Origin: Sialis fuliginosa
Taxonomy: Eukaryota > Arthropoda > Insecta > Megaloptera > Sialidae
Reading direction: 5' to 3'
Length of the DNA stretch: 64,000 nt
NCBI GenBank assembly: GCA_961205875.1
Contig: OY540822.1
Location: 11,410,501-11,474,500 of the forward strand
Positions within the stretch are counted from its first letter, which is position 1. Each line of letters starts with the position of its first letter. The position numbers and the translations under genes were made by a program. The notes under the pieces were generated by a model. It saw only the letters and a program-made list of their open reading frames with translations. It searched no databases and was not told the origin of the DNA. Positions 5,801 through 64,000 of the stretch are shown one piece after another.

Positions 5801-8503
5801 CTTTACATAACACAATTAGTTAAGGTGCAGAAGAATTTCTGCCACAAACCACGAATATTTTCTGAATACAAATGCAGGCTTTATAAGGGGTGAAGTGTAT
5901 TTTATTTTATTTGTCGGTTTGTTAGGATCTCAACGGTGTGAAACGATTTTGAAAAGTTTTATAAGCCGAAACCAATGGTTCTGAGTTTATTCTGCAAGCT
6001 ATACAGGTGCAAATCCACAAAAATTTCATGAAAAATTATAACTCATCGTGGAAACAGTCGTGATAGGTGCGATTTTTAAAAATATATCACAAAACATGTA
6101 GTATCATGGAAATCTTCAAAGATCTACAACGATCTACAAAGATCTCTAAAGATTTTATTAGATTATTTGGTGTGGCTTGACTCGCGACTGTTTAAAATAT
6201 TATAAAGGATATATTAAAATTAATTTCATGTGGTATCTGGAATTCATTGATCTTTCAAATTTCATCTGTGGAAGAAGAGGGTGTTTGATTTGAAGGGAAA
6301 AGGATAGGGGGAGGAAAGAAAAAAATAAGTTTACAACACGAAAGATAAATTATATTGAAAAATTAATAAAAAAAGTTGTTTTTCATGTAGAAACACTTAA
6401 TGTTCTTTCTACATTCTTCTTGTTTTGAAATTCGTATTTTTTAATATCGAATCGTAAGAAGAAAGTATTTTTAAGAATAATTGTTAGTCTGAATTATGTT
6501 AATGAAAACAATTTATTTATTTTTATCTTTACAAAATATGCAATGTGCTTTTTTCTACACAGAAATTAATTAAGTGCTTCCAATCAACAATGACATTATT
6601 TTTAAGGTTATTTACCATCGTTGATTGCAAAAACAATTGGTGAACAAATAATTACAAAACATCGTATTTGAAATTGCAAATCTTTGAACTTAATGAAGTG
6701 ATAAGCAAAAATCGAAGTTGGTAAGAAATGGGGGTAGGTGTTATATATAAAGAAGGCACGAAGAACCGAAGCCGAGGGTAGTGGCATGAGTTATAGGGGC
6801 GAAGAATAAGTTGAAATATGCATCAGTAAGGTCTGTTTTCTATACATTAATGATTCAATATCAATTAGTACTGTCATGAATTATGTAGCTTTCAATCTGG
6901 GTTCCAGCCGTTCTACCCCTGACGAGAGAGGCGGAGTTATTTCTTCTTGAACCATATCTTACAACACAGAAATATAGCTTTAATTAAATTCATTATTATT
7001 TTAGATTCTTGTTTTTCTTATTTACAACAGTCTAATTTGATTGCTTGCGTCTTTGTGCCATTTCTTGGCATCTATTTGCTCAATGGACAAAAATTCATTT
7101 AGAACATTACTAATGCATTGCTTTACCAGATATTGTGCTTTCGGGTAATTGTGGTGAGAAAGCGAGTAAACACTTGGGGTTGGGCAATTTCAATGTTTAT
7201 CTGATGCAAGGAATTGTTAATCAATTAATATAACTTTTGTTCAAATTGAAAATACATATTTAACAGGTGAATTTTTAGTAGTATAATGAAATTTTGTTTA
7301 TAACGAAGTAATGAATATTTTAGTTTATTGGGTTCAGAGAAATCACCGCTTAAATTACATTTATTTTATATAGACACACTTTTTAAAATATTTACTTGAT
7401 TTTCTCTCATTTACCTATAAATAATTAATATGTAACTCTACTCTTTAAGAGTCGATCCAGACTATCGAGCTGGTCTCGGGCCGGTCTCAGTCCAATCAAA
7501 TCTTATGGTATTCACATTATTTATTTTTATTTGATTAACCTGATTTATTGTTAATAACTCATTTAAAGCAGTTGATTCGTATACGCTGATAAATCGAAGT
7601 AAGAATAAATGCCGTAATGGCGCCACATTCGATTCGAAATCACTATTCTTTTAGTGACTAATTCAATTAGTGAAATAACTACTAATTCAGTTTTAGAGAA
7701 TACATAGATTTAGTTGCTATGAATAATTATAAATTTTGTCATAGATAAATAGACGCTTCTTGTAAGTTATCCGGGCCCAGGCCTTTATTAAAATGTATGT
7801 AGAATGTGTCGAGTATAGGGGCAAGTTTTGTGGACAGATTCTTATTGTAACTGTATTTGAAACAGAAAAAGGTATATTTGTTTTGCCCGCATATACCTTG
7901 AAATATATAACATAGAAGATAATGCTTTGAAATAATGCTTAGACGTAAAAAGGCCCACATCTCTTTAGAAAACACATTATTCTCGTATATACTATAACAC
8001 GTTGATTTCTTTTTTGTACATTTACTATTTATTCTACTATTCTTTGAAATCTGACATAACAGAGATGTATTTATGCAAACGGGAATATTCGTATAAAACA
8101 AACAATTCTGGCTATATATGTAACATATCAGATTTATTTATGTCATTAAACCATAATATAGGTATTTTTGTTTCTGTTCTTTTTCTGTTCCGGACTCAGT
8201 TCAAACTGTATTACTCTATCGTACACTCTCTTGATTTACTCTAATACAAAAGTGTGCTCCTAATAATATACTATTTGTTTTAATATATATCTAAAATAAA
8301 ATCAAAAATTGCAAAATATGAAAAGTGAAATTTAATATTTAAGGGGTTACATACCTCCAGTATTGGTAAAGATTAATACTTTTATGGTTGTATTTTAAGG
8401 ACTATATTGCTAAAAATAAGACTAATTATTTATTGGTCATAAGAAAAAAATGCTTAACAACTTTTTTTTATCATAAATTATATGTGTCAATTGTGATTCT
8501 TTA
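2834..8503. other. Non-coding AT-rich region, no gene seen
   Basis: About 5.7 kb of AT-rich sequence, either upstream of FoxP or within one of its 5' introns. The short open frames here lack family resemblance and plausible exon context. Apart from the simple repeat listed separately I see no gene, RNA gene or clear transposon. Confidence 0.5.
3356..3410. repeat. CA-rich simple repeat
   Basis: C/A-rich tract of CCCA/CCCACT units running into an (AC)n stretch ending CACACACACGTG. Confidence 0.8.
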
Positions 8504-9791: not shown

Positions 9792-30158
<20,367 letters not shown>

Positions 30159-30757: not shown

Positions 30758-30944
30758 CTTTATTTCTTTGTTTTAAAAATTTCATTAAATATATAAATAG
30801 ATGAATGTCTGACTGATTTTTTATATGAAATATAATTTATATATTTATTATATTTTCATTGATAAATAAAGTAATAATTTCACAATTTTTTACGAAGTCA
30901 TTTCAGAAACATTAGATTACGTTTAACAATTATTGATATTTATA

Positions 30945-31569
30945 CAGGTGTCCAAGATAAGCGTGAAATACATAGAGAAATCCTAAACGGTAAGAGGTAC
31001 AGCTTTGGTTAAATAAGATTAATTATTTACAAGAAATAAATAAAAAATATTAATAATTCTATGCGGTTTACGTGGTATACAAAAAAAATCTGAAAATTCG
31101 GAATTTCTGTAAATGGCTATAATTTTTTGGTCAAAGTAGATAGGTACTTTTTGTTTGCAGTTTCTTATATCACTTTTAGTTTCCGAGTTACAAGCCCTTA
31201 CTTTAGTTTTTCTTATGGGCCACTAAGTTGAACGTGTTTTTTACTCTACTTTACACCGATATGTAACTTCTCATACTTAGAACAAAGTGATATAAAAATT
31301 CTAAATATATCCAATCAATTCTACACAAAAAGTGCTTTAAGAAATCGTAAGCAAAAAGTACCTATCTACTTTGACAAAAAAATTAAAACCATGACTAATT
31401 GTCAGTTTTTTGATTGGGTATACCGCTTAAACCACATAAAATGTTTAATATTTTTTGATGTAGTAATACTCACCCCTTTCTTATAAATAATTTATCTCAT
31501 TTAATCAAATCTGTATCTCTTACCGTTTAGAAAATCCCCATGCATTTTACGCTTATCTTGGACAACCTG
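30945..31569. mobile_element. Mariner-like MITE (625 bp)
   Basis: Ends CAGGTGTCCAAGATAAGCGT and the inverse CAGGTTGTCCAAGATAAGCGT, flanked by TA. Second-level repeats AAACGGTAAGAG(G/A)TACAG follow at both ends. The core is related to 13600-14045. Confidence 0.8.
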
Positions 31570-32731
31570 TATATTTAACTATGAAAATATCCTCAGGAAT
31601 ATTATTTTATTATTATTATTATTGATAACTTATAAACACTCTTTTTTATTTCACGATGATTGTTACCAAATAATAAATGTATGCATATCCATTTTGTATT
31701 ACTACAGAACGTGATAGTATATTTGAACCCATTAACGTTCAAACTCTTAATTTTAATAAGTCAGTTTTTATTTCAATGTAACTTTGTAATCTTAAAACCA
31801 GAAGATTCCTGGGGCACAAATAAATTTGTTGCCACAATTGTCTATCCTAAATCTCCCCAACACAAAAAATGATATATTTCTAAAGCTTGACCAATCGTAA
31901 TGGCATGCAAAAGAAATAAAATAAAATATTTAGGTATAGTTATTAAAATTAATTTCATTTAAAATGCATTTATATTTTTTTAATTGAAAGCATATGGACA
32001 TTAATGGGTCAATATAAACTACTCAAATAACCTCAGTGAATGTGTTAATTTTAAAGCATCGATACGATGTTTTTTATTTTTATTTATTTATACATATACT
32101 CTCGGTAATTATTGCATTATGATTCAGATTTTTAATAAAGACAAAAGAATAATTAAATTATTAGTCGAAAATTAAATAACTGTTCATAATATAGGTAATA
32201 GTCCAGCCAAAAATAGTTTTTTCCAGGTATTTTGTATTAAAAATACAAATTTTATTCAGGGGCTGATTAAGGAAGAATTACGGCCTAAGCATTTTTGTAA
32301 AAATTATTGGCCCATTTACTGTTTATCAGAATTTTGTTTTCGCCAAACCAGAATTGACGATTTAAGCAGGATAATCAAATATTTTGTAAAAATAAATACG
32401 GTTCTTTTTGGTAAATATTGACTGGGCAATTACAAAATTATTTAATATTTTTCAGTCCAACTGAATATTTGTACATAAATATAAACTATTTAAATGTTAG
32501 TTTTTAAAAAAAATCATCAAGAGCTATTCTAAATAGACTTCGTGATAAACTTGACATTATTTGAGGTTAAAAATAATTATCATGTAGGAGTATATGTATA
32601 AGTGTTTTATATGTATATACATATATATTTAAACTATGAATATCAATGGTATAACTACTTTTTTCAATTAGTATTAAAATAAAATAAAACTAAATTTTGC
32701 ATTGTAGTTACAAAATTGACATAGACATATA

Positions 32732-33363
32732 CAGAGTGGGGCATTTAAAGTGTTACAGATTTTTATCTTTAAATGTTTAAACCAAAAAAATTGTTGTTGT
32801 TGTGAGGGGGTCATCAAATAGTAATATTTATTTATAATTTTAATGTGGCCTTTAAGGATATTTGAAGGTTAACATCATTTTTTAAATAGGAACCTATAGT
32901 TTTCATTTAGTAGTCGTACTCTACGTAAAAAAAAACATGAATCTTTCATTGTAAACTTTTGTTTTGAACAACCTAAGCTTTACAATATATCTAACAAAAT
33001 AATTCGAGATTTTGGACTTTCGAGAATTTTTTACTCTGAAACCATCAACTTAAAAAAAGTACAAGACATAAAAAAATGTTTATTTTGGTCTAATAAAACT
33101 TGGAGAATTATTTTAAAAGTTTTAAAAAAAATTTATTTATTTTATTTAAGCAAAAACAGAAAAATACGAAATGTGAAGATTACTAAATAAATACTATAGG
33201 TTCCTATTTAAAAAAAAAGTTGTTGACCTTCAAAAAACCTTGAAGGCCACATTAAAATAACAAATATTCGATAACCAAACATTTTTTGGTTTGAATTTTT
33301 TTTCAAATATATATACGATGATTCTGAAATAAAAATCTGTAACATTTAAAATGCCCCACCCAG
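32732..33363. mobile_element. Mariner-like MITE (632 bp)
   Basis: Ends CAGAGTGGGGCATTTAAAGT and the inverse CTGGGTGGGGCATTTTAAAT, flanked by TA. Long inverted arms include TAGGAACCTATAGT / ACTATAGGTTCCTA and GTGGCCTTTAAGG / CCTTGAAGGCCAC. Confidence 0.8.
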
Positions 33364-33365
33364 TA

Positions 33366-35739
33366 TATGAATGTATGTATATACATATGTACGTATGTAA
33401 AATGTAAATTATCATTCATAGGTATTGATAATATTTTTTGTAAAATCTTCTCTCAGATAATATATTGAAGGTGCTTTATTTTAATGTTACTTAAAATTTT
33501 AATGAAAAGAACTATCACTCGACATCAATGGTATTTATAAACGTTAAATGTTTTTAATATGTTTTTTTAAGTATTTATAGTAAACAAAAATAATCATTTT
33601 ATCAACATTCCTTCTTAAATAAAATGTGTATATCATAATTTCCTTAAAATTTTCTTTTCTGAAAGCGGGGGTCGATTTTTTTTAATTTTTCGTTTCCATA
33701 AAATAAACACGATTTTTATTATCTTTATGGCCCTCAGTATTAAACAGTTTGTCGACCTCTGTCTTAAATGATTGTTATAGTTTAATCTTGTTGACTTGAT
33801 GTTTATAAATTTTATAGGGCATATCAAAAACTGATAAAAATTGTGAAATTTAATAGAATCTCAATAATTTTAATAAGTACATATATAATAAAATATATAG
33901 CTAAATGTTTACTTAGATAATTTAATTTCATATTATAAAAAATTATTTGAAAAATTTCATTATTAATGTAAAAAATAATTTTAAAGTTTGAAGAGTGGTA
34001 GAAAACTTGTATATATTTCTTTAACTTTGCTTATACAATAAGTTGAAAGAATATGTTAATAGTATACCTAAACAAAGGTACCCGATGTTATTAATATAAT
34101 ATTTTATGTATGAATCATTTGCCTGATACCATTGTAACTGGACTCTTGTTATTATAAACAATAACGAACTATTTTATAACAAATTTTCTCTGATAATTTT
34201 TAGTTAGAAACTTTTTCTATAACAGTATAGATGCTTTTGTAATTTTTTAAATTTGTTTATAAAAAAACTTCATTTCTCGTGTTTCTTTTTTAATTAGTTT
34301 AATAATCCATGTATACAAATTATTATTTCATCTGAGAGTAAAAATTCCATATCACTGAAAAGTATAATTAATAATATCGATGTATAATAAAATAAAAATT
34401 TAATTCTTACAACAAATTTTAATGAGAAATGTGTTTTATTTATTTTTAATATAATTCCAGTGAATATCAACAGTGTTTTTAAGAGGTATGTACATATTTA
34501 TAAATGATATCAAATATTTTGTTTTTTTTTTTATAACGTTAACAATTAAAAATTTTCGACCAAAAAGTAGCAATTTTATAGCATAAAGAATATAAATCCA
34601 GTTTTGCATTTTGTTAAATTAATACTAAACATCTATAAATTACGAGTTTTATGAGGGGGGTGGGGTACATACAGCTTATTTCCATTTTAATAACATGGTG
34701 CAAAAAACACAATTTACCTACATTTTGTAGTACGTTAATTAAAGATCGATTCCCATCAGAGACGTATTTATATTTTTGCCGTCTATAAAAATTAACCGTT
34801 CTTTATAAGCACCGGCCTATTTGGAAATCTAGGCTCTATTCCCTTTATAATTAAAAAGTACTAATTATATTTATTTGAATATTAATATGTATTATAGCTA
34901 ATGCTGGATTTATCAAAGGGCACATTATACACAAGCGTAGGACGGTAAATTGTCAGGGGCGGCAAAATTTTTAACAATTATCTATATAAATATATAAAAT
35001 CTTTGCCTATTTAAGTTGCCTTATATACATGTTATCCCAAAATTCACACTCATTTGTGCACTGATGTATCTCATGAAAGTACATAATACTTTTATTGTTG
35101 TAGAAAGGAAATTTTTACAAACAAGTGATTAATCATTTGAACTTACAGGAAGTAATATATTTGTCATGTAGTCCAATATACAGAAATCTGCATTACCTAA
35201 ATGCATATCTATAATGTCACTTACATTAAATACGCTAGAGGGCAGTGACATCTCATACATACATGCATATTTTAATGATTTTATATTGTAGGTATATAAT
35301 ACAGGCATTAATAATTGTATAAATATATTTATATATAATTTTTAACATATATAATTTTTTTCCTTGAATTAGAGCAAATGGAGCAACGGAAGCAATTGTG
35401 ACTAAGTTGCATGTGTGGTTGCATGGGTTGCATGTACTATACCACTGTCGGCAATCACTATAATCATACAAATTACAATTCCCTATAATGTTCGTAGACA
35501 AAGCTTTCTCATATGAAATGTGTTGAGTAGTTTTATCTATGAATTCTATTGTGTAGTTTGAGAAATTTCAGTGCAGTGTTCAATGGTTACACATAATTAC
35601 ATCGTGTGTCTGATATTGATAGTTTGATTATTTATACGAATTGTATATATTGTTTTTAATTTATTAGTTAATAATGGTTTCAATGGTTAGTATACTTCGT
35701 TATAAAGCAGTTATTTTGCGTAGTTATTCTATGTATCTC
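33366..35739. other. Intergenic region between FoxP and HUWE1
   Basis: AT-rich with no convincing gene. Short open frames have no recognisable family or splice context. Confidence 0.5.
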
Positions 35740-39143: not shown

Positions 39144-42100
39144 GTAAGTTGTAAATTCAGCAGTTATAAGAACACAAATCTATGTTTACTGTTCTGTTGC
39201 AGATGGAAATTAATTTCTGTCGGAAGGAACAACCATTTGAAATAGTTATTAGCGGATCAAATGAAGATTCGACCTTAACATCTGAAGGTACGAGTAATGA
39301 TTATTTGCATCAAGACGTCGTGATGCAAACCGTTGAAAGTGGCAGTAGTTCGGAACGTACACCTCCGTCTCGGACTTGCTTACCACAAAGAGCAGCACTT
39401 CTTAAATCGATGCTGAATTTCATGAAGAAAGCTATACAAGAACCGGCATTTGCTGAAAATATTCGTCATATAATGGAAGGCACTTTACCTTCGTCATTAA
39501 AACACATTATCAGTAATGCTGAATACTACGGACCATCTCTATTCCTTTTGGCAACAGACGTGGTTACTGTTTACGTGTTCCAAGAACCTAGTTTGCTGTC
39601 GTCTTTACAAGATAACGGTCTCACTGATGTTGTTCTTTATGCTCTGTTAATCAAAGACGTACCTGCTACCAGAGAAGTGTTGGCATCTTTACCTAATGTT
39701 TTCAGTGCACTATGTTTGAATGCTCGGGGCTTGGATTCATTTGTGAATTGCAAACCGTTCGACAGATTATTCAAAGTCCTGCTAAGTCCCAGTTATTTGA
39801 CGGCAATGCGTAGAAGGCGTAGTGCAGATCCAATGGGCGACACTGCAACTAATCTAGGCAACGCGATGGATGAACTGATGCGTCACCAGCCGAGTTTGAA
39901 AGTCAGCGCCATGAAAGCGATCATCACCCTTCTTCATGAGCTGTGTCATTTAGGTACAGATGCCAAATATATTTGCTGGAGAGCTCAGAATAAATCTGAC
40001 GTTTCACCTGCTGCTTCCCAAAATCAGAATGGCACCAATGAAGCCGGAAGTTCAGACGAAGAAGATGATGATGAAGAAGAAGCTTCCACGTCATCACACA
40101 ACCAGAGAGTAGATGCTACACAAGAAAATGCAGATGTCTGCACAAACAATGAAAAAATTCCAATTGCCCTTGTAGATTATATTGTTAATGTAACTAAATT
40201 TGTAGACGCTATTTTGAGCAATAATTCAACAGACGATCATTGTAAAGAATTTGTATTTCAAGAAGGTCTAGTACCTTTGCTGAAAATCCTGAGTTTACCT
40301 AACTTACCCGTTGATTATCCTGTTACAATTGCAGCACAAAGTGTTGCATCAGTTTGTAAGAGCATTTTAAATCTGGCACACGAGCCACAAGTGTTAAAAC
40401 AAGGCTTGACAGAATTAGGACATGTATTACATCAGCTTAAAGATTTACACGATCCGGTGAAGTCTGTTGAAGGTTCGGTTTTACTCCACGAATTAGCGAA
40501 TGCACCTTCGTTAGAATCTGCATTTTCTACGAGTCATTATACGCCGCTCCTACATGCGATGGGTGCTGCTCACGGATATGTAGTTATGTTTGTTCACGTG
40601 TGTCGTACTGGACAAAGTGATATTCGGCAATTGTCTTTACAGCACTGGGGCTCTGAAACTGGGCTTGAAGTGCTGAAAGGCCTTGCTGAATTATATACGG
40701 CTCTTGTTTGGGAAAGTACGATTCTCTTGGCTTTGTGTAGTGATGATATCATCCCAGAAAATTGTGATTTTGGAAAACAAGATATGGACAAATTAATTTC
40801 ACCGGAATGTAAAATCGATGACGGCTCCCACGATAACAGTAATGGAATGACGTGCGCAATGGAAGCTTTATCAACTGACCCATCTCCAGTCAGTATGGAA
40901 GTAGAACAAGAGATACCTGCTGTGGAAAAACCGAAGAAATCTGAAGAACGCATATCATTGACAGCACATCAACTAAAATATATTAAACCGCTATTAGGAG
41001 CATCCTCACGGTTAGGTCGTGCTCTAGCTGAATTGTTCGGTTTGTTAGTGAAACTGTGTGTAGGAACTCAAGCTCGTAATCGACGAGGTCAGAACAGTAT
41101 AGCTACGTTAACACTACCTAGTTATCCAGCACGGCAAGTTGCAACAGCACTGAATGAACTGTTAACTAGAGGCATGGCTTGGGAATTGCTACCCCAATCA
41201 CCAATACCCAAATTCAGACTTACCTTTTTAATATGCAGTGTTGGATTCACAAGCCCGATGCTTTTTGATGAGAAACGATACCCTTATCATTTAATGTTGG
41301 AAAAGTTTGTTAACCTTGGTGGTCAAGCTGCATTCTTTGAAACATTTAAATGGGCTTTATCAGGAGGCTACACTTTTCCTTTAGAAGAAGGTTTAGAACA
41401 TCCTGACTTACCGGATGGTACAGGCGAATTTCTGGATGCCTGGTTGATGTTGCTTGATAAAATGGTGAATCCAACAGCGTTAATAGAATCACCTCATATT
41501 TGTTCAAGCAAAATAATAACTCACGATAAAGCTAAGTCTCTCCAGAAGAACGCGACAGATTTTGATCCATTAAATTATTTGATTAATATTCAAAAGCTTG
41601 CTTTTGAATCTGTAATGTTATTGTGGGGTAAAAAACCTTTGAAAACTTACGGAGCTCGAATGAGTGAATCGATATTATCTATTTTAAGACACATTCTTCA
41701 AGCTGAAAAAATAATAAATGATGCAGTTCAAAAGAAATCAACAGATAAAGCATCTGGCAGTAATTTCACTAATAACACAGTGTGTACAAATCACCAAACA
41801 GAAAATGTTAACCCTGATCATTTACGTCAGTTGATGGACATGGGATTCAGTCGTGAAATGTGTACTGATGCTTTACTCCAGACTAACACTGTAGAACAAG
41901 CGACAGACTATCTGTTGAACAGTGCCGGTCACAGAACATTCGACATGGACGTTGGCGAAGAAGACCAGATGGTGAAAGCTATAGCCATGTCTTTAGGAGA
42001 AACAACCGAAGATGAACTAACGCCTCTGGGCTCAGATGCAATAGATAAGTTCAGTCAAACAGTACTTGACGTTTCTCTAAACCTGATTGATCAATTACCC

Positions 42101-45100
42101 GACACTGTATATTCAGTATGTGAACTGTTATTTGCCATAATACGACGTAAGAAGTCATGGGAAATGTTAAGGCAAAGAATAGTTATGGACATTCAAGAAA
42201 AATGTGTAGCTCTTTTAAACTTAATGAAAGGCCGCAACTATAAAGAAGTAACAGAAGAGTTGATGAACAATGAAATCGGTGCAAAAGCAGCTGTCAGAAT
42301 GCATCTACTTGCTCTATTGATCGATGCACCAAATTACAGAGTAATGAAAATACCTGGAGGTTTGGCCATCACAGAGAGCGGTCTGTTGAACATAATGATA
42401 AGTTTACTGTGTGCAGCTGAACAAGCAATGTCTGCAGCACCAAGAGAAGCCATTACATCCACTCCAAAATGGTTAGCCACTCTTCTATTGTTGATAGATT
42501 TAACTGACAAAGTGGCTGTACAAACATTAAACAAGAACCGTTTATGTGATTCGACAGGTACTATCTGGCAATGGTTTGATTTTTCTTTAGGAAAATGGAA
42601 CCGATACACTCAAATCAATAACGATTTAATCAACGCTGCATACAGAGCAGAAGATCCTATAACTAGAGTGACTTGCGGTAGACGTAGATATACCTTGAAT
42701 TTCGCTCACATGATTCAAGTTTCAGAAGAAACAGGCAACCAGAGACCTATAACAAGGAACATGGTAAACATGATAAATACAACAAAGCCAGCAGATTCTC
42801 CGATGGATGGCTGTAATGACACTAAAGAATATCAAGTTGTTAATGGGGTCGATCCAACATTAACAAGGTTTATCACTCGTGCTTGTGTACGTTTACTGAA
42901 ACTTCCAATTAATACGGACACTCTACATGCTATAATGAGGGTGCTTCTTCGTTATACTAGAAACTATGAAAATGCAAAACTTTTTGCTCGGGAAGGAGGA
43001 ATCAAACTTTTATTATCCATAACGCAAGCTTCTAGCTTCAATGGATTTGAAACAATAGCAACATTGATTATAAGACACGTTTTGGAAGCTCCAGAAATTC
43101 TTAAAGTCACAATGGAAAGAGTTATAAGAAGTAGAACATCTTCAAATATTCCAACTGAATTCAGAGAAATAGTATATGTAGGAAGACAGTTGAGTTCTGC
43201 TATTTGCAGAGACCTGGACACTTTCCACAATGTTGCCCTAGAAATATGGAAACCTGATAATACTGTAGATGTAAATAAAAAAAGTAAGTGTTCGTTAAAT
43301 CATTAAATTTACCTTATTTAACTCACCGCAATATTTATTTATATACTTATGTTATTAGCAATTTTATTTCCATAGATACAGTTTGTACTTAATACATTAC
43401 TGCCAATTAAAAATATTTTAGTTATTTTTGGTAAGAATTCAGGAGGTATGAACTTTAAAAAAAAATATTTGAATATATTTAACTAAAAATTTAAAAATGA
43501 AAATTTAAACAAAAAGCAGTTCTTTTTTTTTAAAGATGAAGAAGAGTTAGGTATTTTTTTAACATTATGAAGAAAATCTACTTTTAAAAAATACAATATT
43601 TTCTGCTTTTTAATAGATTTAAAGCAAATTATTTTTATTAATGTGTTGTATTTCATACTTAAGATAACTGATCTTTCCAGATGAAGATAATCCCAGCGAA
43701 GAAATTTTCATCAAATGTAAAACGGTGAATGCACCGCAAGATATCTGTATTACTGAAAAAGAAACAATAGAGTGTATATCAGATTTATTAATCGCTCTTG
43801 CTAAACCTGATACTCCACATTGTGCTCAAACAACAGAGACCAGCACTGTTTCTTCTCCAACTACATCAAACAAGTTTTTATCCACCAGTACCCCAAATGC
43901 ATTTGTTCCAAGACTCTTACAATCCAGCATTATTTTACCTACATCAGACTTGGAAGATGAAATTGTTTCATTACCTGGTCGTTCGGGAATATCAAAAGAG
44001 ACGCATACCACATCTTCTAGTCACGGAAAAGTTAATGACAGTGAATCAAAAAAACCTTTGATCCGGAAATCAGACATCTTGAAGATATTATCAGATGCTG
44101 TTCGATCATATCCTATCATCGGAAAATATATATTATATTTTGTCTATCATCCTAAACATTCAGAACTTATTACAGAGGTAAGATGATATAATTTATTTAT
44201 AATAAAGTGTGTCCATATTTTTCTTATTTTATATTAGGTTGCCTTCATATAAAAATCGAAAGAAAAAAAAAAGTGGTCATAGAATTTATTTAAAACTGTA
44301 AAATTAAATAATTTTTTTTTATCAGGGATTTATAATATGCTATTGTACGCAGCTAGTGTTTCTCTTTTTTTAGTATTTCAAATCTCAAACATTTATATAC
44401 GACAACGGATGTCCATTCAAAAAATGAAATAAAATATTACAAATTTTGAAATTATAATATTTTGTCAAGTCACAAGGCTTTAGTAGATATATTTTTAGTT
44501 TTATTAAAAACAAATTTAGTTAAAATGGCAAAACAGGCAGTGGTTAGATTATAAAGTTTTCCTGGACTTTTTTATGACACTGAAGCTAGCGGCCAGACCT
44601 CAGTATTCACTATATAGAATTATAAGTGGTTAAAACAATTGTAAAAATCATTACTCCGCAATTTTTCAGAATTTTTTTGGCTTAATAAAACTAATTTTCA
44701 CGTTATTTACAATTAATTAAGCCATGACAGTTATCAGGACAGACAATTTTGCGACTTTTTAAATAGATGCAAATATCAAATCTGACATATTTGAAAATAA
44801 ATGGACTATTACAGGCGATAACATTTTTTTGGAATTTTTATTTGTTTTGTATGTTATTACAACTGTAAATACCTACATTTTGATACCCATATAAAGTGGG
44901 GAAAGACATTTTTACAATTTACTGAGCGGTTTTTAAAGGCGCCCTTAAAAACCACTCAGTAAATTATAAAAATGTCTGTCCCCACTTTATATGGGTATCA
45001 AAATGTAGGTATTTACAGTTGTAATAACATACTGAGGTCTGGCTAGCTTCAGTGTCATGACTTTTTTGAGTGTGTGTTAATTTACAAAATATTAATATAA

Positions 45101-51100: not shown

Positions 51101-53344
51101 GAAACAGCTGAAACAGATGACAGATCACACTTAACACCATTCCAAGGAGCTTACGATGACCACGGTAATCCTGTCAGTGATGAATCGGGTTCTGGAAACA
51201 CAATCGCTCCTTTATTGTCTCCGTTACAGGGCGATGGTACTTCCCAGTTAGATTTTACTGAAGGGTAATAGAATAAAATTGATTATTTTCTTTGAAACAA
51301 ATATATTATATTTGTTTTTTATTTTAGAACTGAATCGAGTTTAATGGATCAAACTGTAAATGTTTCATCACTTTTCTCCAGTTTTGCTGCTGCTACATCT
51401 GCATCATCTAATACTACAGAAAAGGAGAAAAAGAGGAAAGATAAAGATATAATAAACATTAAAGATGATCAAGCGAAATTCTTAGAATTTGCTGGTGAGT
51501 AAAATATTTTTCTTTAGAATTAAAGAAAATATTAATTTATTATGTGCACGATTTTCTCAGTAACTACTCAACGGATTTTATTCCGGTTATCACTAATGGA
51601 TAGTGTTTTACGAGGAAGGCTTAGGTGTATAACTTGTGGATATTTTATGTAAATTTGCACTTCGTAAATACTTAGCGATAAATGAACTTAATATTTAATA
51701 GATTTATTACAGATTAAATTTAACTCTTCGGGTAACATCGGGTCCAATGCGCTAGCATAATATAAATATAATAATGCCACACCCTGTACATATTATATTG
51801 TATTAAAATCATAGAAAAATGATATCTTGAAATTATTTTAAAGTGAATATTTATTTCAGTTCGCCACCGTACGGTATTAAATCAAATTCTACGACAAACG
51901 TCTGGAAATTTGGCAGATGGGCCGTTTGCGGTTTTAGTAAACCATACAAGAATACTAGATTTTGATGTGAAGCGTCGCTACTTTAGATTTGAGTTAGAAC
52001 GTTTAGATAACGGAGTCCGTAGAGAAGAATTGGCCGTCCATGTACGTCGAAGTCATGTTTTTGAAGATTCTTTCAGAGAATTATATCGACGTAGTCCTGA
52101 AGAGTGGAAGAACAGATTCTATATTGTGTTTGAAGGTAATTTAAATAACTGAAGTTATATTTTCTATTGTGATATTTATATATTTTTTTAATAGATGAGG
52201 AAGGTCAAGATGCTGGAGGTCTATTACGTGAATGGTACGTGATTATAAGTCGGGACATATTCAATCCAATGTATGCGTTATTCACTGTATCTCCCGGAGA
52301 TAGAGTCACATACATGATCAACCCGTCGAGTCATTGTAATCCCAACCACTTGTGTTATTACAAATTTGTCGGACGAGTTATTGCTAAAGCAATCTACGAT
52401 AATAAACTATTAGAATGTTATTTCACACGTTCCTTCTACAAACATATTCTCGGTAAACAAGTAAAGTACACGGATATGGAAAGTGAGGATTACAGTTTCT
52501 ATAAAGGATTGGTTTACTTAATGGAACATAACGTGTCTGATTTGGGATACGATTTAACATTCAGTACCGAAGTACAGGAGTTTGGTGTTACGAATGTAAG
52601 AGATTTAATTACAAATGGAAGTAAAGTAGCCGTCAATGAAGAAAACAAAATGGAGTATATTCGTTTAGTTTGCCAAATGAAAATGACTGTATCAATACAT
52701 AAACAGTAAGTTATTCGAGTATTGATGGATAATTAAGTAATTCTAATGTATGTTACTTGTTACTTTTAGGCTGGCAGCATTTTTAGAAGGATTCTATGAT
52801 ATCATACCAAAGAGACTGATTTCTATATTCAATGAACAAGAATTAGAATTATTGATTTCGGGCTTACCAGATTTTGACATTGAAGATTTGAAGAACAATA
52901 CTGAATATCACAAGTATCAATCAACATCATTGCAGGTATTTTTTTGTAAATTGTTTAAGGAATAATGATAATGCATATTGTTTTTATTTAGATACAATGG
53001 TTTTGGCGAGCGTTACGTTCATTCGATCAAGCTGATAGAGCTAAGTTCTTGCAATTTGTAACAGGAACCTCTAAAGTTCCTCTCCAAGGTTTTGCTGCAT
53101 TAGAAGGCATGAACGGTGTACAGAAATTCCAGATTCACAGAGATGATCGTTCAACTGATCGTCTGCCATCGGCCCATACTTGGTAAATAAATATAAATAC
53201 AAATGTGAATTGAGTGATATATTGTTTTTATTTGATTTCAGCTTCAATCAGTTAGATTTACCTGTATATGAGACATATGACAAACTAAGAACAAATCTGT
53301 TAACGGCTATTCAAGAATGCAGTGAAGGATTCGGTTTCGCCTAA
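37441..53344 (+). CDS. HUWE1: HUWE1 HECT-type E3 ubiquitin-protein ligase, complete, 24 coding exons
   Basis: Giant E3 ligase that takes ubiquitin from an E2 onto its own cysteine and transfers it to substrates; in mammals these include MCL1, p53, MYC and histones. Coding exons: 37441-37704, 37763-38002, 38063-38296, 38356-38642, 38703-38982, 39042-39143, 39203-43283, 43681-44177, 45257-45829, 45891-46158, 46296-46562, 46622-46769, 46974-47524, 47588-48194, 48575-49034, 49101-50715, 50775-50968, 51032-51264, 51328-51494, 51860-52135, 52195-52705, 52770-52935, 52992-53182, 53242-53344. They total 12315 nt, an exact multiple of 3: 4104 aa, slightly shorter than human HUWE1 (about 4370). The start [10 protein letters not shown] matches the family start. 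Domain order: DUF908, DUF913, UBA (about 1341-1377), UIM (about 1388-1404), WWE (about 1575-1645), acidic region, UBM repeats, HECT with Cys4071. Every intron is GT-AG. Confidence 0.97.
39203..43283 (+). CDS. HUWE1: HUWE1 exon 7: 4081-nt exon with DUF913, UBA, UIM, WWE
   Basis: One exon encodes residues 470-1829. DUF913 blocks include [20 protein letters not shown] and [20 protein letters not shown]. An acidic patch lies at about 40055-40085. The UBA is [20 protein letters not shown] onward from 41816 (ubiquitin binding), the UIM is [15 protein letters not shown] from 41957, and the WWE is around [15 protein letters not shown] from about 42566 with GRRRYTLNF (poly-ADP-ribose-type binding fold). 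The exon ends at ...AAAAAA before gtaagtg in phase 1. No stop codon interrupts the 4.08 kb. Confidence 0.96.
43681..48194 (+). CDS. HUWE1: HUWE1 exons 8-14: central linker, BH3-like and acidic regions
   Basis: Seven exons (43681-44177, 45257-45829, 45891-46158, 46296-46562, 46622-46769, 46974-47524, 47588-48194). The segment around [18 protein letters not shown] and [18 protein letters not shown] matches the part of HUWE1 that carries the BH3-like motif. Exons 10-11 encode a long Asp/Glu/Ser run (45891-46562), probably disordered. Exons 13-14 carry [18 protein letters not shown] and the Ser/Pro/Thr-rich linker. The intron between exons 8 and 9 (44178-45256) holds a palindromic MITE. Confidence 0.93.
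44574..45058. mobile_element. MITE with near-perfect 180-bp palindrome in HUWE1 intron 8
   Basis: Outer ends ATGACACTGAAGCTAGC and the inverse ATGACACTGAAGCTAGCC enclose CCAGACCTCAGT on both sides. Inside, arms 44850-44939 and 44941-45031 are almost exact inverse complements with essentially no loop (centre GGC|GCC at 44940). Non-coding. Confidence 0.8.
48575..50715 (+). CDS. HUWE1: HUWE1 exons 15-16: ubiquitin-binding (UBM/DUF4414) region
   Basis: Exon 48575-49034 encodes two related helices-with-LP repeats, [20 protein letters not shown] and [20 protein letters not shown]. Exon 49101-50715 starts with a third, [20 protein letters not shown]. These are the tandem ubiquitin-binding motifs of HUWE1. 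Downstream blocks [40 protein letters not shown] and [13 protein letters not shown] continue the C-terminal scaffold. The 66-bp intron between them is phase 0. Confidence 0.94.
50775..51494 (+). CDS. HUWE1: HUWE1 exons 17-19: linker before HECT
   Basis: Exons 50775-50968, 51032-51264 and 51328-51494. Recognisable HUWE1 blocks are [20 protein letters not shown] and [19 protein letters not shown]. The rest is a charged and Ser/Thr-rich linker ([14 protein letters not shown]), then [20 protein letters not shown] leading to LEFAV at the HECT boundary. Confidence 0.93.
51495..51859. other. HUWE1: HUWE1 intron 19
   Basis: 365-bp AT-rich intron before the HECT exons; no gene or clear transposon. 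Confidence 0.6.
51860..53344 (+). CDS. HUWE1: HUWE1 exons 20-24: HECT catalytic domain
   Basis: Exons 51860-52135, 52195-52705, 52770-52935, 52992-53182 and 53242-53344. Contains [40 protein letters not shown], the C-lobe [20 protein letters not shown], and the active-site block LPSAHTCFNQLDLP. The catalytic Cys (residue 4071) is encoded TG|C across the last intron (53183-53241). Thirty-three residues follow, ending SEGFGFA, with TAA at 53342-53344. The full HECT fold is present with no missing motif. Confidence 0.97.
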
Positions 53345-55744: not shown

Positions 55745-56035
55745 GCAAATGCTAGTTTGTTAAAAACACACCAAAATGTGTTACAAAACACACATGAGTG
55801 TGTTATTTGACACACATAAGTGTGTAGTCAAGATTAAGTGTGTTTATTGACACACTTATCCGTGTTAAAAGAGTAACACACTTTCTGGTGTGTAAAAAAT
55901 AATTTGTAAATAATAATCAAAAATATTATTTACACACTTGAGTGTGTTGAAATGACACGTTTAATATCTACTAACACAATTTTTGGAGAACTACACACTT
56001 TGAAAATAAACACACTTGTTGGTGTGTTAGAATAT
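55745..56035. repeat. Cluster of ACACAC/GTGTGT mini-hairpins
   Basis: At least six short inverted repeats in 290 bp, for example CACACATGAGTGTGT, CACACATAAGTGTGT, CACACTTATCCGTGT, ACACACTTGAGTGTGT and CACACTTGTTGGTGTGT, separated by AT-rich spacers. No clear outer termini. Possibly an unrecognised transposon interior. Confidence 0.6.
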
Positions 56036-57815: not shown

Positions 57816-57819
57816 TTAA

Positions 57820-57984
57820 ATGCATCTGCTTCTGTCAGTTGCATTCAAATTTCGATCACGTGATCAGAGTACTGTGAGCACAGATGCAATAAAGCTACAG
57901 TACTGCGGCAGTAGTAAAATGGCGGCGATCAATGACGTCATCACCACTGGCCAGTGCTCACAGTGTATATCGGAACATAGACTC
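57820..57984 (+). repeat. Left 165-bp terminal inverted repeat with regulatory-like motifs
   Basis: Contains GATCACGTGATC (palindromic E-box) near 57856-57867, AATAAA near 57889, AAAATGGCGGCGATC near 57917-57931 and TGACGTCA at 57933-57940, in that order inward. The inverse copy is at 59018-59182. Confidence 0.85.
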
Positions 57985-59017
57985 GGTGCCGTGAAATTAC
58001 TTGGTGCCGTGAAATTACTTGGTGCCGTGAAATTACTTGGTGCCGTGAAATTACTTGGTGCCGTGAAATTACTTGGTGCCGTGAAATTACTTGGTGCCGT
58101 GAAATTACTTGGTGCCGTGAAATTACTTGGTGCCGTGAAATTACTTGGTGCCGTGAAATTACTTGGTGCCGTGAAATTACTTGGTGCCGTGAAATTACTT
58201 GGTGCCGTGAAATTACTTGGTGCCGTGAAATTACTTGGTGCCGTGAAATTACTTGGTGCCGTGAAATTACTTGGTGCCGTGAAATTACTTGGTGCCGTGA
58301 AATTACTTGGTGCCGTGAAATTACTTGGTGCCGTGAAATTACTTGGTGCCGTGAAATTACTTGGTGCCGTGAAATTACTTGGTGCCGTGAAATTACTTGG
58401 TGCCGTGAAATTACTTGGTGCCGTGAAATTACTTGGTGCCGTGAAATTACTTGGTGCCGTGAAATTACTTGGTGCCGTGAAATTACTTGGTGCCGTGAAA
58501 TTACTTGGTGACGTGAAATTACTTGGTGCCGTGAAATTACTTGGTGCCGTGAAATTACTTGGTGCCGTGAAATTACTTGGTGCCGTGAAATTACTTGGTG
58601 CCGTGAAATTACTTGGTGCCGTGAAATTACTTGGTGCCGTGAAATTACTTGGTGCCGTGAAATTACTTGGTGCCGTGAAATTACTTGGTGCCGTGAAATT
58701 ACTTGGTGCCGTGAAATTACTTGGTGCCGTGAAATTACTTGGTGCCGTGAAATTACTTGGTGCCGTGAAATTACTTGGTGCCGTGAAATTACTTGGTGCC
58801 GTGAAATTACTTGGTGCCGTGAAATTACTTGGTGCCGTGAAATTACTTGGTGCCGTGAAATTACTTGGTGCCGTGAAATTACTTGGTGCCGTGAAATTAC
58901 TTGGTGCCGTGAAATTGGTGCCATACCAAGTTATTTCACGGCACCAAGTAATTTCACGGCACCAAGTAATTTTACGGCACCAAGTAATTTTACGGCACCA
59001 AGTAATTTTACGGCACT
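57985..59017 (-). repeat. 18-bp minisatellite, inner array with orientation switch
   Basis: Units GGTGCCGTGAAATTACTT from 57985 to about 58916 (one variant with A at 58511). A short junction (ggtgccatacc) follows, then about five units in the opposite orientation, the last three with T instead of C (TTTTACGGCACC). Confidence 0.95.
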
Positions 59018-59182
59018 AAGGCTATGTTCCGATATACACTGTGAGCACTGGCCAGTGGTGATGACGTCATTGATCGACGCCATTTTACTACTGCCGCAGT
59101 ACTGTAGCTTTATTGCATCTGTGCTCACAGTACTCTGATCACGTGATCAAAATTTGAATGCAACTGACAGAAGCAGATGCAT
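59018..59182 (-). repeat. Right 165-bp terminal inverted repeat
   Basis: Inverse complement of 57820-57984 with a few substitutions, for example GATCGACGCCATTTT here where the inverse of the left copy would read GATCGCCGCCATTTT. Retains the E-box palindrome and the CRE. Confidence 0.85.
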
Positions 59183-59370
59183 TTAAGGTTAACTTTGGAT
59201 GTATTTTTTATTATCAGGTTATTTGAAGATGAATTAATAACATTTATGGTATATATAATCAAAAGTAAGTATAAATAAGAATAAATAATTTAGCCTCAAT
59301 TGAAATGCACTAATATAATTAAGCAAATTGACGCAACAATATAAATTTTTTGAATTGCTATTTTTTTTTG

Positions 59371-59652
59371 TTTACGGCACCTAGTATGCCCTAGAATTCC
59401 ATGGTGCCGTAAAATACCTTGGTGCCCTAGAATTCCTTGGTGCCCTAGAATACCTTGGTGCCGTAAAATTATTAGGTGCCCTAAAATTACTTGGTGCCCT
59501 AAAATTACTTGGTGCCGTAGAATTCCTTGGTGCCGTAAAATACCTAGGTGCCCTAGAATTCCTTGGTGCCCTAAAATACCTTGGTTCCCTAGAATTCCTT
59601 GGTGCCGTAAAATACCTTGGTGCCCTAGAATTCCTTGGTGCCCTAGAATACC
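59371..59652 (-). repeat. Degenerate 18-bp minisatellite, right outer array (about 15 copies)
   Basis: Units such as TTGGTGCCCTAGAATTCC and TTGGTGCCGTAAAATACC. They are related to the left array but in opposite orientation and much more diverged, and they use the T variant seen in the inner right units. Confidence 0.9.
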
Positions 59653-61399: not shown

Positions 61400-63700
61400 T
61401 CAATATGGCTTCAGATCAACTACGTGCCAAACACCCTTGCTGTTTCCCTCGTCGTCTTCCAGTTCGAATGCTAGGTCGGAAGCTCTACGACAAATCCTGA
61501 AAGGACCGACAAACTTGGGTGCCAAACCCGCCGCAAAGTGACGTGCAGCATCGGAGAGAACGTAATTTCGCTTCATGACCAATTGTCCAACCGTATAATC
61601 TACTGGTCGTCGCCGTAGGTTGTATGTTCTCTCGTTGCGTTCATGTGCTTTTTGAAGTTGTTCTTTTACGTTCGTCCAAATTGTTCTAAAGGGTTCCGTT
61701 TTCCTCGTAGGATCATCTCCTCTCTCAATCTCGAGATCAGGCCGAACTTCCTGCCTTCCGAACAATGTGCCGTTAAGAATGTGCTGCCGCCCAAAGTTAA
61801 CGAAATAGGGTGTAGCCTCTATTACATCGTGTCTAGCAGTCCTTAGAGCACAACCGAACTTCGCCAAATTCTCGTCCCACTTCTTATGGTTATCCTTCAG
61901 GTACGAACGTATCATCGTTTTGATGACCCGGTTGACACGTTCTACCGGATTGGCCTGAGGATGATAGTGAGCCGTATAAAGTACCTGGACGCCATACTTT
62001 TGGAGTGTTCTCTTAAACTCGATGCTCTTAAATTGTACGCCATTGTCACAAATGAGATATTGTGGAGCACCGAAGAGTAAGAATACTTCATCCTCCAGTT
62101 TCTTTATGATCGGCGGTGTCTTGGCCGTCCGAAGGGGAAAGAGTAGTGAGAATTTGCTGAAGTAATCCGCGACTACTAAAATATAACAGTGTCCTTGACT
62201 TGAGCGCGGTAGTGGACCGATTAAGTCTACGCTGAGGAGCTGCCATGGTTGAGAGATGTTCGGGCGCCGGCCCATCAATCCTGCAGGTCTTGTTTGTGCG
62301 GGTTTTTGTTCCGCACACACCTGACAATTCCTTACGTATCGTTTTACGTCGGCCCGCATTTTCGGCCAATAATATAGTTGAGCCAGACGGTGGTATGTCT
62401 TATTGGCTCCCATATGACCGGATGTCGGTTCATCGTGACCTTCAAATAAGGCCTCGGCACGACATTCTTTTGGAAGAACTTTCCGCCAACCGCTATCTCC
62501 GGTTGTTGCTGAGCTGCGCATTTTCTTGTACAAATCGGTGCCATCAATGCGCCAATTTGCCATTTTCCTCGGAAGTTCTTGTGTTTTTAAGTGTACCCGA
62601 GTGTACCACTTATCCGCTGTGTCAGGCGGAATCTCGACGACATCTACTGGTACAGACCTCGATAAGGCATCAGGCACTACGTGATCCTTGCCTTTACGAT
62701 GTAGAACGGAGAAATCGTACTGTTGGAGTCTGATCGCCCATCTGGCCAATCTCCCTGCTGGATCTTTTAAATTACTCAGCCATACCAAAGAGTGATGGTC
62801 GGTAATGACGGTGAACTTAGATCCTTCCAAGTAGGGGCGAAACTTTTCTATTGACCAGATGACAGCCAGACACTCCTTCTCTGTTGTCGAGTAGTTCCTC
62901 TCCGCCTTATTAAGGGTACGACTCGCGTATCCGATGACGTGCTCTCCATCGGGGAACTGTTGTGAAAGCACGGCACCAAGCCCATAGTCGCTCGCATCAG
63001 TCTGGACCACAAACGGAAGGTCAAAATCTGGACAAGACAGAATCGGTGCCGAGATCAATGCATTCTTAAGATCTCCCAACGCCTTATCACAGGTTCCTGT
63101 CCAGGACCACCTTTTGGTTTTCTTCAGCAACTCGGTCAGTGGTGCGATGGTTGTAGAGAAATTCGGTATGAATCGTCGGTACCAGCTTGCCATTCCAATG
63201 ATGCGACGTACTTCTGGTACATTCTTAGGAGGTAGAATATTGACTATAGCAGACACCTTGTCCGGATCGACATGCAGGCCGTTCTGGTCGACTACGTAGC
63301 CCAAGTACTTAAGTTCTGGCCTACAGAACTGACATTTCTCCGCGCTAAGTGACAGGTTCGCTTCCAATAACCTGGAGAAGACTCTTCGTAGGACGTCTAG
63401 ATGTTGTTCGAACGTTTGCGTACTTATAATGATATCGTCCAAATAGACGAACACGAATGGTTCTAACTCCGGTCCTAGAACACGGTCGATCAAACGCTGC
63501 CAAGTAGCCGGGGAATTGTGAAGGCCAAACGGCATACGACGGAATTGGAATAGGCCTCTCCCTGGAACCGTAAATGCCGTCTTATCTCGACTGTCCTTCG
63601 CCACTGGGATCTGCCAGTAGGCTGACTTGAGGTCAAGAGACGATAGGTATCTGGCGTCCCTCAGTCGATCTAATATGGCAGATATGTAATATGCCATCAT
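61400..63700 (-). CDS. Ty3/gypsy retrotransposon pol fragment (RT-RNaseH-integrase)
   Basis: Open minus-strand frame of 766 codons with no internal stop. Reverse transcriptase: SSLDLKSAYWQIP with catalytic D23, the FRRMPFGLHNSPATWQ block, and YLDD at 86-89. RNase H: TDAS (D235) and ITDHHSLVWL. Integrase: zinc motif with His at about 422-437 and C459/C462, catalytic D492, D552 (CDNG) and E587 (NPVE), then a C-terminal GPF-containing module ending HVVDLKPY. Protease, gag and the first part of RT are absent: the frame begins in the middle of the RT fingers (YISAILDRL). Upstream sequence is unrelated AT-rich DNA, so this is a 5'-truncated copy. The retained catalytic residues and lack of stops suggest it is young. 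Confidence 0.92.
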   Translation of the reverse strand: MMAYYISAILDRLRDARYLSSLDLKSAYWQIPVAKDSRDKTAFTVPGRGLFQFRRMPFGLHNSPATWQRLIDRVLGPELEPFVFVYLDDIIISTQTFEQHLDVLRRVFSRLLEANLSLSAEKCQFCRPELKYLGYVVDQNGLHVDPDKVSAIVNILPPKNVPEVRRIIGMASWYRRFIPNFSTTIAPLTELLKKTKRWSWTGTCDKALGDLKNALISAPILSCPDFDLPFVVQTDASDYGLGAVLSQQFPDGEHVIGYASRTLNKAERNYSTTEKECLAVIWSIEKFRPYLEGSKFTVITDHHSLVWLSNLKDPAGRLARWAIRLQQYDFSVLHRKGKDHVVPDALSRSVPVDVVEIPPDTADKWYTRVHLKTQELPRKMANWRIDGTDLYKKMRSSATTGDSGWRKVLPKECRAEALFEGHDEPTSGHMGANKTYHRLAQLYYWPKMRADVKRYVRNCQVCAEQKPAQTRPAGLMGRRPNISQPWQLLSVDLIGPLPRSSQGHCYILVVADYFSKFSLLFPLRTAKTPPIIKKLEDEVFLLFGAPQYLICDNGVQFKSIEFKRTLQKYGVQVLYTAHYHPQANPVERVNRVIKTMIRSYLKDNHKKWDENLAKFGCALRTARHDVIEATPYFVNFGRQHILNGTLFGRQEVRPDLEIERGDDPTRKTEPFRTIWTNVKEQLQKAHERNERTYNLRRRPVDYTVGQLVMKRNYVLSDAARHFAAGLAPKFVGPFRICRRASDLAFELEDDEGNSKGVWHVVDLKPY

Positions 63701-64000
63701 ATGTAAAACGACACGCTGATATCATATATTACACAAGATTAAATTTCCTTCGTTTGTTAAAACTTTCAAGCAAATTTTTTAGATAAATGTTGATAAAAAA
63801 ACGTTTTATTTTATCCTTTTTTTATCCTTACTTGGAAATGTACTCTTTATTTGTAATTTAGATTTTAATGATCTTTTTTTTATAGTCGACAATCTCAAGT
63901 TTTTTTTTTATGTAATTGTACATTTCCTATTAACTTTATTTTCACGAATAAAAATATATGTAACATTTTCAAGAACCAAATAAAAGTTTTACGCTGCCGC
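63701..64000. other. AT-rich flank of the truncated retrotransposon
   Basis: No coding sequence seen; low-complexity T/A-rich DNA beyond the truncation point. Confidence 0.5.

Follow-up and report, generated by a model that had tools for sequence, protein, structure and literature searches.

A candidate foldback-type element with TTAA borders and opposed 18-bp minisatellite arrays in Sialis fuliginosa

The origin of satellite arrays is an open matter, and the locus described here raises the question of whether a mobile element has given birth to a minisatellite or has merely come to lie beside one. We analysed a stretch of 64,000 nucleotides from Sialis fuliginosa (contig OY540822.1, positions 11410501 to 11474500), referred to below as the window, in which a pair of inverted ends encloses tandem arrays of an 18-bp unit and further arrays lie outside (Table 1). 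If the repeats grew from the element, the locus would show the stages of satellite birth side by side, namely diverged units in array D, mixed units in array C, and a young unit type in array B and, outside the element, in array A. If the genome's other copies agree, the unit types could date the birth of the arrays relative to insertion. If the locus is a single-copy local rearrangement, it would be only a curious inverted minisatellite.

Table 1. Parts of the locus in order along the window
Feature	Position	Strand	Basis
Outer array A, 74.6 units, consensus unit of B, opposite orientation, reaches left TTAA	56475..57817	-	TRF and unit table
Left border TTAA, putative target-site duplication	57816..57819	.	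Direct reading
Left terminal inverted repeat (TIR), non-repetitive outer part of the arm	57820..57980	+	98.8% to right arm
Inner array B, 52 units of GGTGCCGTGAAATTACTT, inward from left end	57981..58916	+	TRF and unit table
Hinge region, two arrays head-on	58917..58924	.	Direct reading
Inner array C, 5.3 units, opposite to B	58925..59020	-	TRF and unit table
Right TIR	59022..59182	-	Self-comparison of window, arrays masked
Right border TTAA	59183..59186	.	Direct reading
Outer array D, 14.6 diverged units (84% matches)	59387..59649	+	TRF and unit table

When the arrays were masked and the window was compared with itself, the inverted ends fell at 57816-57980 and 59022-59186, each 165 bp long with TTAA included, and they were 98.8% identical with two mismatches (E = 2.3e-78). 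An earlier reading of the sequence alone had proposed equal inverted termini of this length, TTAA at both borders and the absence of CCC ends. All of this was borne out; the element begins ATGCATCTGC (first bases ATGC) directly inside each TTAA. The flanks outside the two borders are unrelated to each other. When up to 3 mismatches were allowed, the 20-bp end was found as two exact copies in the window, against a mean of 0.00 in 100 shuffles. The G+C content of the window is 32%, and TTAA occupies 1.35% of its positions outside the locus. With TTAA this common, and with its second occurrence tied to the first by the inverted-repeat relation of the ends, the borders by themselves are no more than suggestive. 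In addition, TA forms a direct duplication at both borders, inside TTAA.

The same reading had described the interior as made only of 18-bp repeats. The units are there, but they do not form one minisatellite: two opposed arrays meet at a hinge, where the stem TTGGT/ACCAA (58915-58919 and 58925-58929) encloses the 5-base loop GCCAT, and array C reads GGTGCCGTGAAATTACTT with variants inward from the right. When the element was cut at 58919/58920, the right half (267 bp, hinge loop included) could be aligned from end to end with the left half (1104 bp); 256 positions matched, 11 did not, and the only gap, of 837 bp, fell inside the repeats. Since the whole right half aligns to the left half with one gap, the element is one border-to-border palindrome with a one-sided surplus of about 46 units in its left arm; this difference was either gained by the left arm or lost from the right. 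In the minimum-energy single-strand DNA fold, the two termini form a stem that starts at TTAA and runs inward, at -408.3 kcal/mol as computed without a shuffle control, and the centroid structure holds the outer arms only. For the left arm by itself, the gain in folding over shuffled sequence is modest (z = -2.07), and 7 of 200 shuffles did equally well.

The minisatellite had also been taken as the core of the element. The interior does consist of the 18-bp repeat, but the same repeat extends outside it, in the two arrays A and D. Array D starts 200 bp past the right end and is immediately preceded, at about 59371-59386, by a 16-base unit fragment in the opposite orientation (15 of 16 bases matching). 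Together, A and B form inverted arms of 936 bp around the left TIR as the loop; in their best ungapped register, 933 of the 936 positions are identical (99.7%). A scan of the window for the unit with at most 3 mismatches returned 149 matches, only 2 of which fell outside 56.4-59.7 kb. These two outlying matches, at 5824 and 50606, carry 3 mismatches each, and 2.48 such matches are expected by chance from shuffles of the whole window. The association between unit and element is therefore not accidental, and at this sensitivity the repeat family is confined to the locus within the window.

The arrays differ in the type of unit they hold. At unit position 9, an A is found in 15 of the 16 stretches cut for D, and the sixteenth, at the left edge, is not a unit. 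Among the 5 units of C, the 3 nearest the right TIR carry A at this position and represent a GTAAAA variant, and the 2 inner ones carry G. The exact G-type consensus was recovered in 71 of the 75 stretches cut for A and in 50 of the 53 cut for B. Among the stretches that depart from the consensus, A and B each have one that overlaps the TIR, and the remaining 3 in A and 2 in B differ at 1-3 positions. Judged from divergence, the simplest order would place D as the oldest array, followed by C, with the G type then expanding into B and A. The G-type unit can accordingly be read as the younger one, probably expanded both inside the element and in A. Because A has the unit type of B and not that of D, it appears to be part of the element's own recent expansion rather than an older host satellite, as the comparison of units suggests. 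Later homogenisation between A and B would look identical to such an expansion of the G type. The last unit of A before the border reads GCATC where the consensus has GCACC and equals the adjacent TIR end, which gives a weak hint that the border unit was joined in an exchange.

The explanation towards which we lean, with somewhat more confidence than doubt, is that the locus holds a nonautonomous DNA transposon of the foldback/MITE type, probably targeting TTAA, whose 161-bp outer arms are recognised by a transposase acting in trans, and whose arm repeats expanded and seeded local arrays. Taking the anatomy, the unit types and the array orientations as they are observed, we infer from this one copy that transposition, a duplication of the target and a spread of repeats from the element to its flank probably took place. 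In this scenario, a transposase encoded elsewhere would bind the unique 161-bp outer arms and insert the element at TTAA. The starting point would have been a near-perfect palindrome with an estimated size of about 0.53 kb, each of whose halves (about 265 bp) had about 5 units of the 18-bp repeat behind TTAA and a 161-bp unique stretch. The array of the left arm would then have grown by about 46 units via slippage or unequal exchange, and the young G-type unit would also have built the 75-unit array outside the left end, which would make the element a source of the local minisatellite. Palindromic arms with short units may promote template switching at stalled forks as well as slippage and unequal exchange; such events would lengthen one arm and could set units past the terminus in inverted orientation, as in A. 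This explanation is supported by the near-identical arms, which stop at the palindromic TTAA, past which the flanks differ. On the other side, a plain insertion leaves unexplained why A ends exactly at the left border, and the ATGC termini match neither of the two TTAA superfamilies whose end motifs were compared. The TTAA could also be no more than the end of an inverted duplication, or TA could be the sequence that was duplicated. A bolder version, which we offer tentatively and regard as rather unlikely, is that the element belongs to an undescribed TTAA-targeting foldback family with ends of neither the piggyBac nor the Kolobok kind, and that the palindrome itself drives satellite birth: hairpin replication or repair would copy arm repeats past the terminus, leaving a young inverted array outside (A) as well as inside (B).

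Alternatively, a transposon that had acquired its inner repeats earlier from such satellites may have landed at the edge of a pre-existing 18-bp satellite, with A and D being host satellite. Array D, 200 bp to the right, is probably older, given its divergence, and both outer arrays could be remnants of one satellite locus. However, A shares the consensus of B and not that of D, which is unexpected if A and D represent one old satellite. Hitting the exact edge of an array would in addition be a coincidence, and the window outside the locus holds only the 2 chance-level unit matches. We therefore consider such an insertion improbable, though worth keeping in view.

A scenario that involves no transposition at all seems to us similarly doubtful. 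Here, a minisatellite locus prone to inversion and template switching would have undergone an inverted duplication of a 161-bp unique segment that merely ends at TTAA. Both array orientations do occur inside and outside the element, including the inverted unit fragment beside D, and the 936-bp arms of A and B, at 99.7% identity, are a configuration expected to rearrange. Nevertheless, the 4-bp palindrome at which the arms stop is a known target of transposons and accounts for 1.35% of positions, the flanks are unrelated, and the symmetry of the element extends from one border to the other. The lack of a second copy would also fit a local rearrangement: exact and degenerate patterns of the element end and of the repeat unit had 0 matches in the viral and prokaryotic contig collections that we scanned. 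This absence says little, however, because collections of viral and prokaryotic sequence do not cover the host.

There is little to recommend a third alternative, a TA-duplicating family of the Tc1/mariner type whose ends begin AATGCATC and in which the outer T stands beside each TA by chance. TA is indeed a direct duplication at the borders as well, but one extra coincidence is required, and we take the ends to be unlike known Tc1/mariner termini. As stated in passages of a survey of 98 insect genomes, TA is the target duplication of Tc1/mariner MITEs, and TC1-Mariner is the largest MITE superfamily there (PMC5199201). A mirrored read, which would make the element an assembly artefact, was discarded as an explanation: the halves disagree at 11 aligned positions, some of which give the unit type of D, and the flanks past TTAA are unrelated. 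An older element spanning A to D was likewise considered; the orientation of A and D (minus, then plus) is opposite to that inside the element, and at E 1e-4 the array-masked self-comparison yielded no inverted pair joining the sides of A and D other than the TIRs.

What kind of element is this? The comparison with foldback transposons made in the sequence-only reading fits well: the inverted ends are long, and the inner arms consist of tandem repeats in inverted orientation, as in the structural class of foldback elements. Foldback (FB) of Drosophila melanogaster and Galileo likewise have long inverted ends with internal tandem subrepeats and can snap back; they are not known as TTAA elements, and their target duplications are longer. 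By structure, the nearest foldback element appears to be Tetris of Drosophila virilis, whose arm repeats became satellite arrays and on whose example foldback elements have been proposed as one source of satellites, according to the portions of the article compared here (PMC4079207). These portions describe an apparently nonautonomous element without a conserved ORF; its inverted ends combine an outer domain with an inner tandem-repeat domain, and its repeats also occur in long homogeneous arrays and vary in number between alleles (PMC4079207). Tetris differs in its target duplications (8-10 bp, here TTAA), its outer domain (up to 866 bp, here 161 bp) and its repeats (about 220 bp, here 18 bp), and where only a hinge is found here, it has a middle domain and one more inner TIR domain (PMC4079207). 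Moreover, compared with Tetris as portrayed there, the repeats of the present locus also lie outside the end, in the opposite orientation.

A second likeness is found in Xmix and Xstir of the T2-MITE family of Xenopus, which in the consulted parts of two papers are nonautonomous, target TTAA and have an amplified internal segment that forms a large tandem-repeat family (PMC6004289, PMC9659126). A table in one of them gives the TIR as the source of Xstir (PMC9659126), and the ends of T2-MITEs carry AGGRR in the corresponding text, whereas those found here read ATGCATC (PMC6004289). Tetris and Xmix/Xstir thus offer earlier examples of TIR elements that carry tandem repeats and amplify them. The CMITEs of corals, which are piggyBac-type MITEs, share the TTAA borders, the nonautonomous state and a link with tandem arrays; in the excerpted account, however, their ends begin CC[C/T]T and their arrays consist of whole elements (PMC2872659). 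The literature matches also included a minisatellite within a miniature inverted-repeat element of Porphyromonas gingivalis, a bacterial case compared by its title and the start of its abstract (PMC4596501), and a mosquito Mutator-like element, likewise represented by part of its record (PMC5225508).

Assignment to a superfamily was attempted through the end motifs. The CC[C/T]T given for piggyBac/TTAA MITEs in the section at hand (PMC2872659) does not occur at the ends, which begin ATGCATCTGC, and the 5'-RR ... YY-3' ends beside TTAA given for Kolobok/T2-MITE elements in extracts of two papers (PMC9587614, PMC6004289) are not found either, the first bases being AT. Because a start with ATGC fits neither piggyBac (CCYT) nor Kolobok (RR), we assigned no superfamily and placed the element no further than among the foldback-type nonautonomous elements, a structural class. 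TTAA duplication is also a property of Sola3. A TTAA preference like that of piggyBac, as suggested before, would fit the borders, where TTAA stands on both sides; a TA duplication would fit as well, and the piggyBac end motif is absent.

The kind of element is already known, and this member may be new. It was not recognised among the elements described in the open-licence PMC literature, as represented mostly by titles and abstracts, and six sequence stretches of the locus occurred in 0 papers when searched in the text of open-licence PMC papers. Rfam gave 0 matches at the gathering score in the window, and no Pfam match was obtained in the left arm for the plus-strand frame from 57820.

E-box and CRE sequences had been pointed out in the termini. 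They are present: GATCACGTGATC and TGACGTCA occur in both arms, and ATGGCGGC of the left arm is replaced by the one-base variant ATGGCGTC in the right. The further suggestion that these sites recruit host factors is weak, because the richness of the arm in palindromes covers both: the E-box and the CRE are two of the four palindromes of at least 8 bp in 158 bp of the left arm, which start at 57854, 57898, 57932 and 57945 and include GATCACGTGATC and ATGACGTCAT. Four such palindromes compare with a mean of 0.59 in 5,000 base shuffles (P = 0.0048), and the two 12-bp palindromes of the arm gave P = 0.00065 in 20,000 base shuffles. Among 383 window tiles of the same size outside the locus, 12 had at least as many palindromes of at least 8 bp, 2 had two 12-bp palindromes, and 35 had at least one. 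The left arm is therefore palindrome-rich but not unique in the window. It is also not enriched in CpG, as the observed/expected ratio is 0.83 in the arm and 1.05 in the window. Outside the locus, the window contains CACGTG 4 times, TGACGTCA 2 times and ATGGCGGC once.

The window holds other inverted-end elements. A diverged MITE-like element whose inverted termini span about 240 bp (ends TAGGGTGTRTC) lies at 24600-25381, and another, at 30941-31573, has inverted ends of about 240-250 bp (ends TATACAGG), with TTAA one base away on one flank; parts of it are similar to 13601-14089, and it is thus probably a repeated family in the genome. A third, with ends of about 200 bp and GGGGCATTT near the tip, occupies 32719-33378, and short inverted ends of about 75 bp around AGTACGTTTACACAGCGC were seen at 16622-17176. 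When four inverted pairs were checked as possible relatives of the element, 0 had TTAA at both arm ends. At 55754-56030, ACACAC and GTGTGT words are interleaved and clustered in both orientations, possibly a decayed palindromic element, and a tandem direct duplication of about 190 bp with 81% identity lies at 27207-27549.

As for coding sequence, a FOXP coiled-coil reading frame was found at 17287-17826. DUF913, UBA and WWE domains at 39170-43306 and a HECT domain at 52173-52709 make up a set that we take to be a HUWE1-like ubiquitin ligase. On the minus strand, a pol reading frame with RT, RNase H and integrase, presumably of the Gypsy type, spans 61400-63721; the RT match begins only at position 55 of the Pfam profile (205 positions), which shows the 5' end of the frame to be truncated or interrupted.
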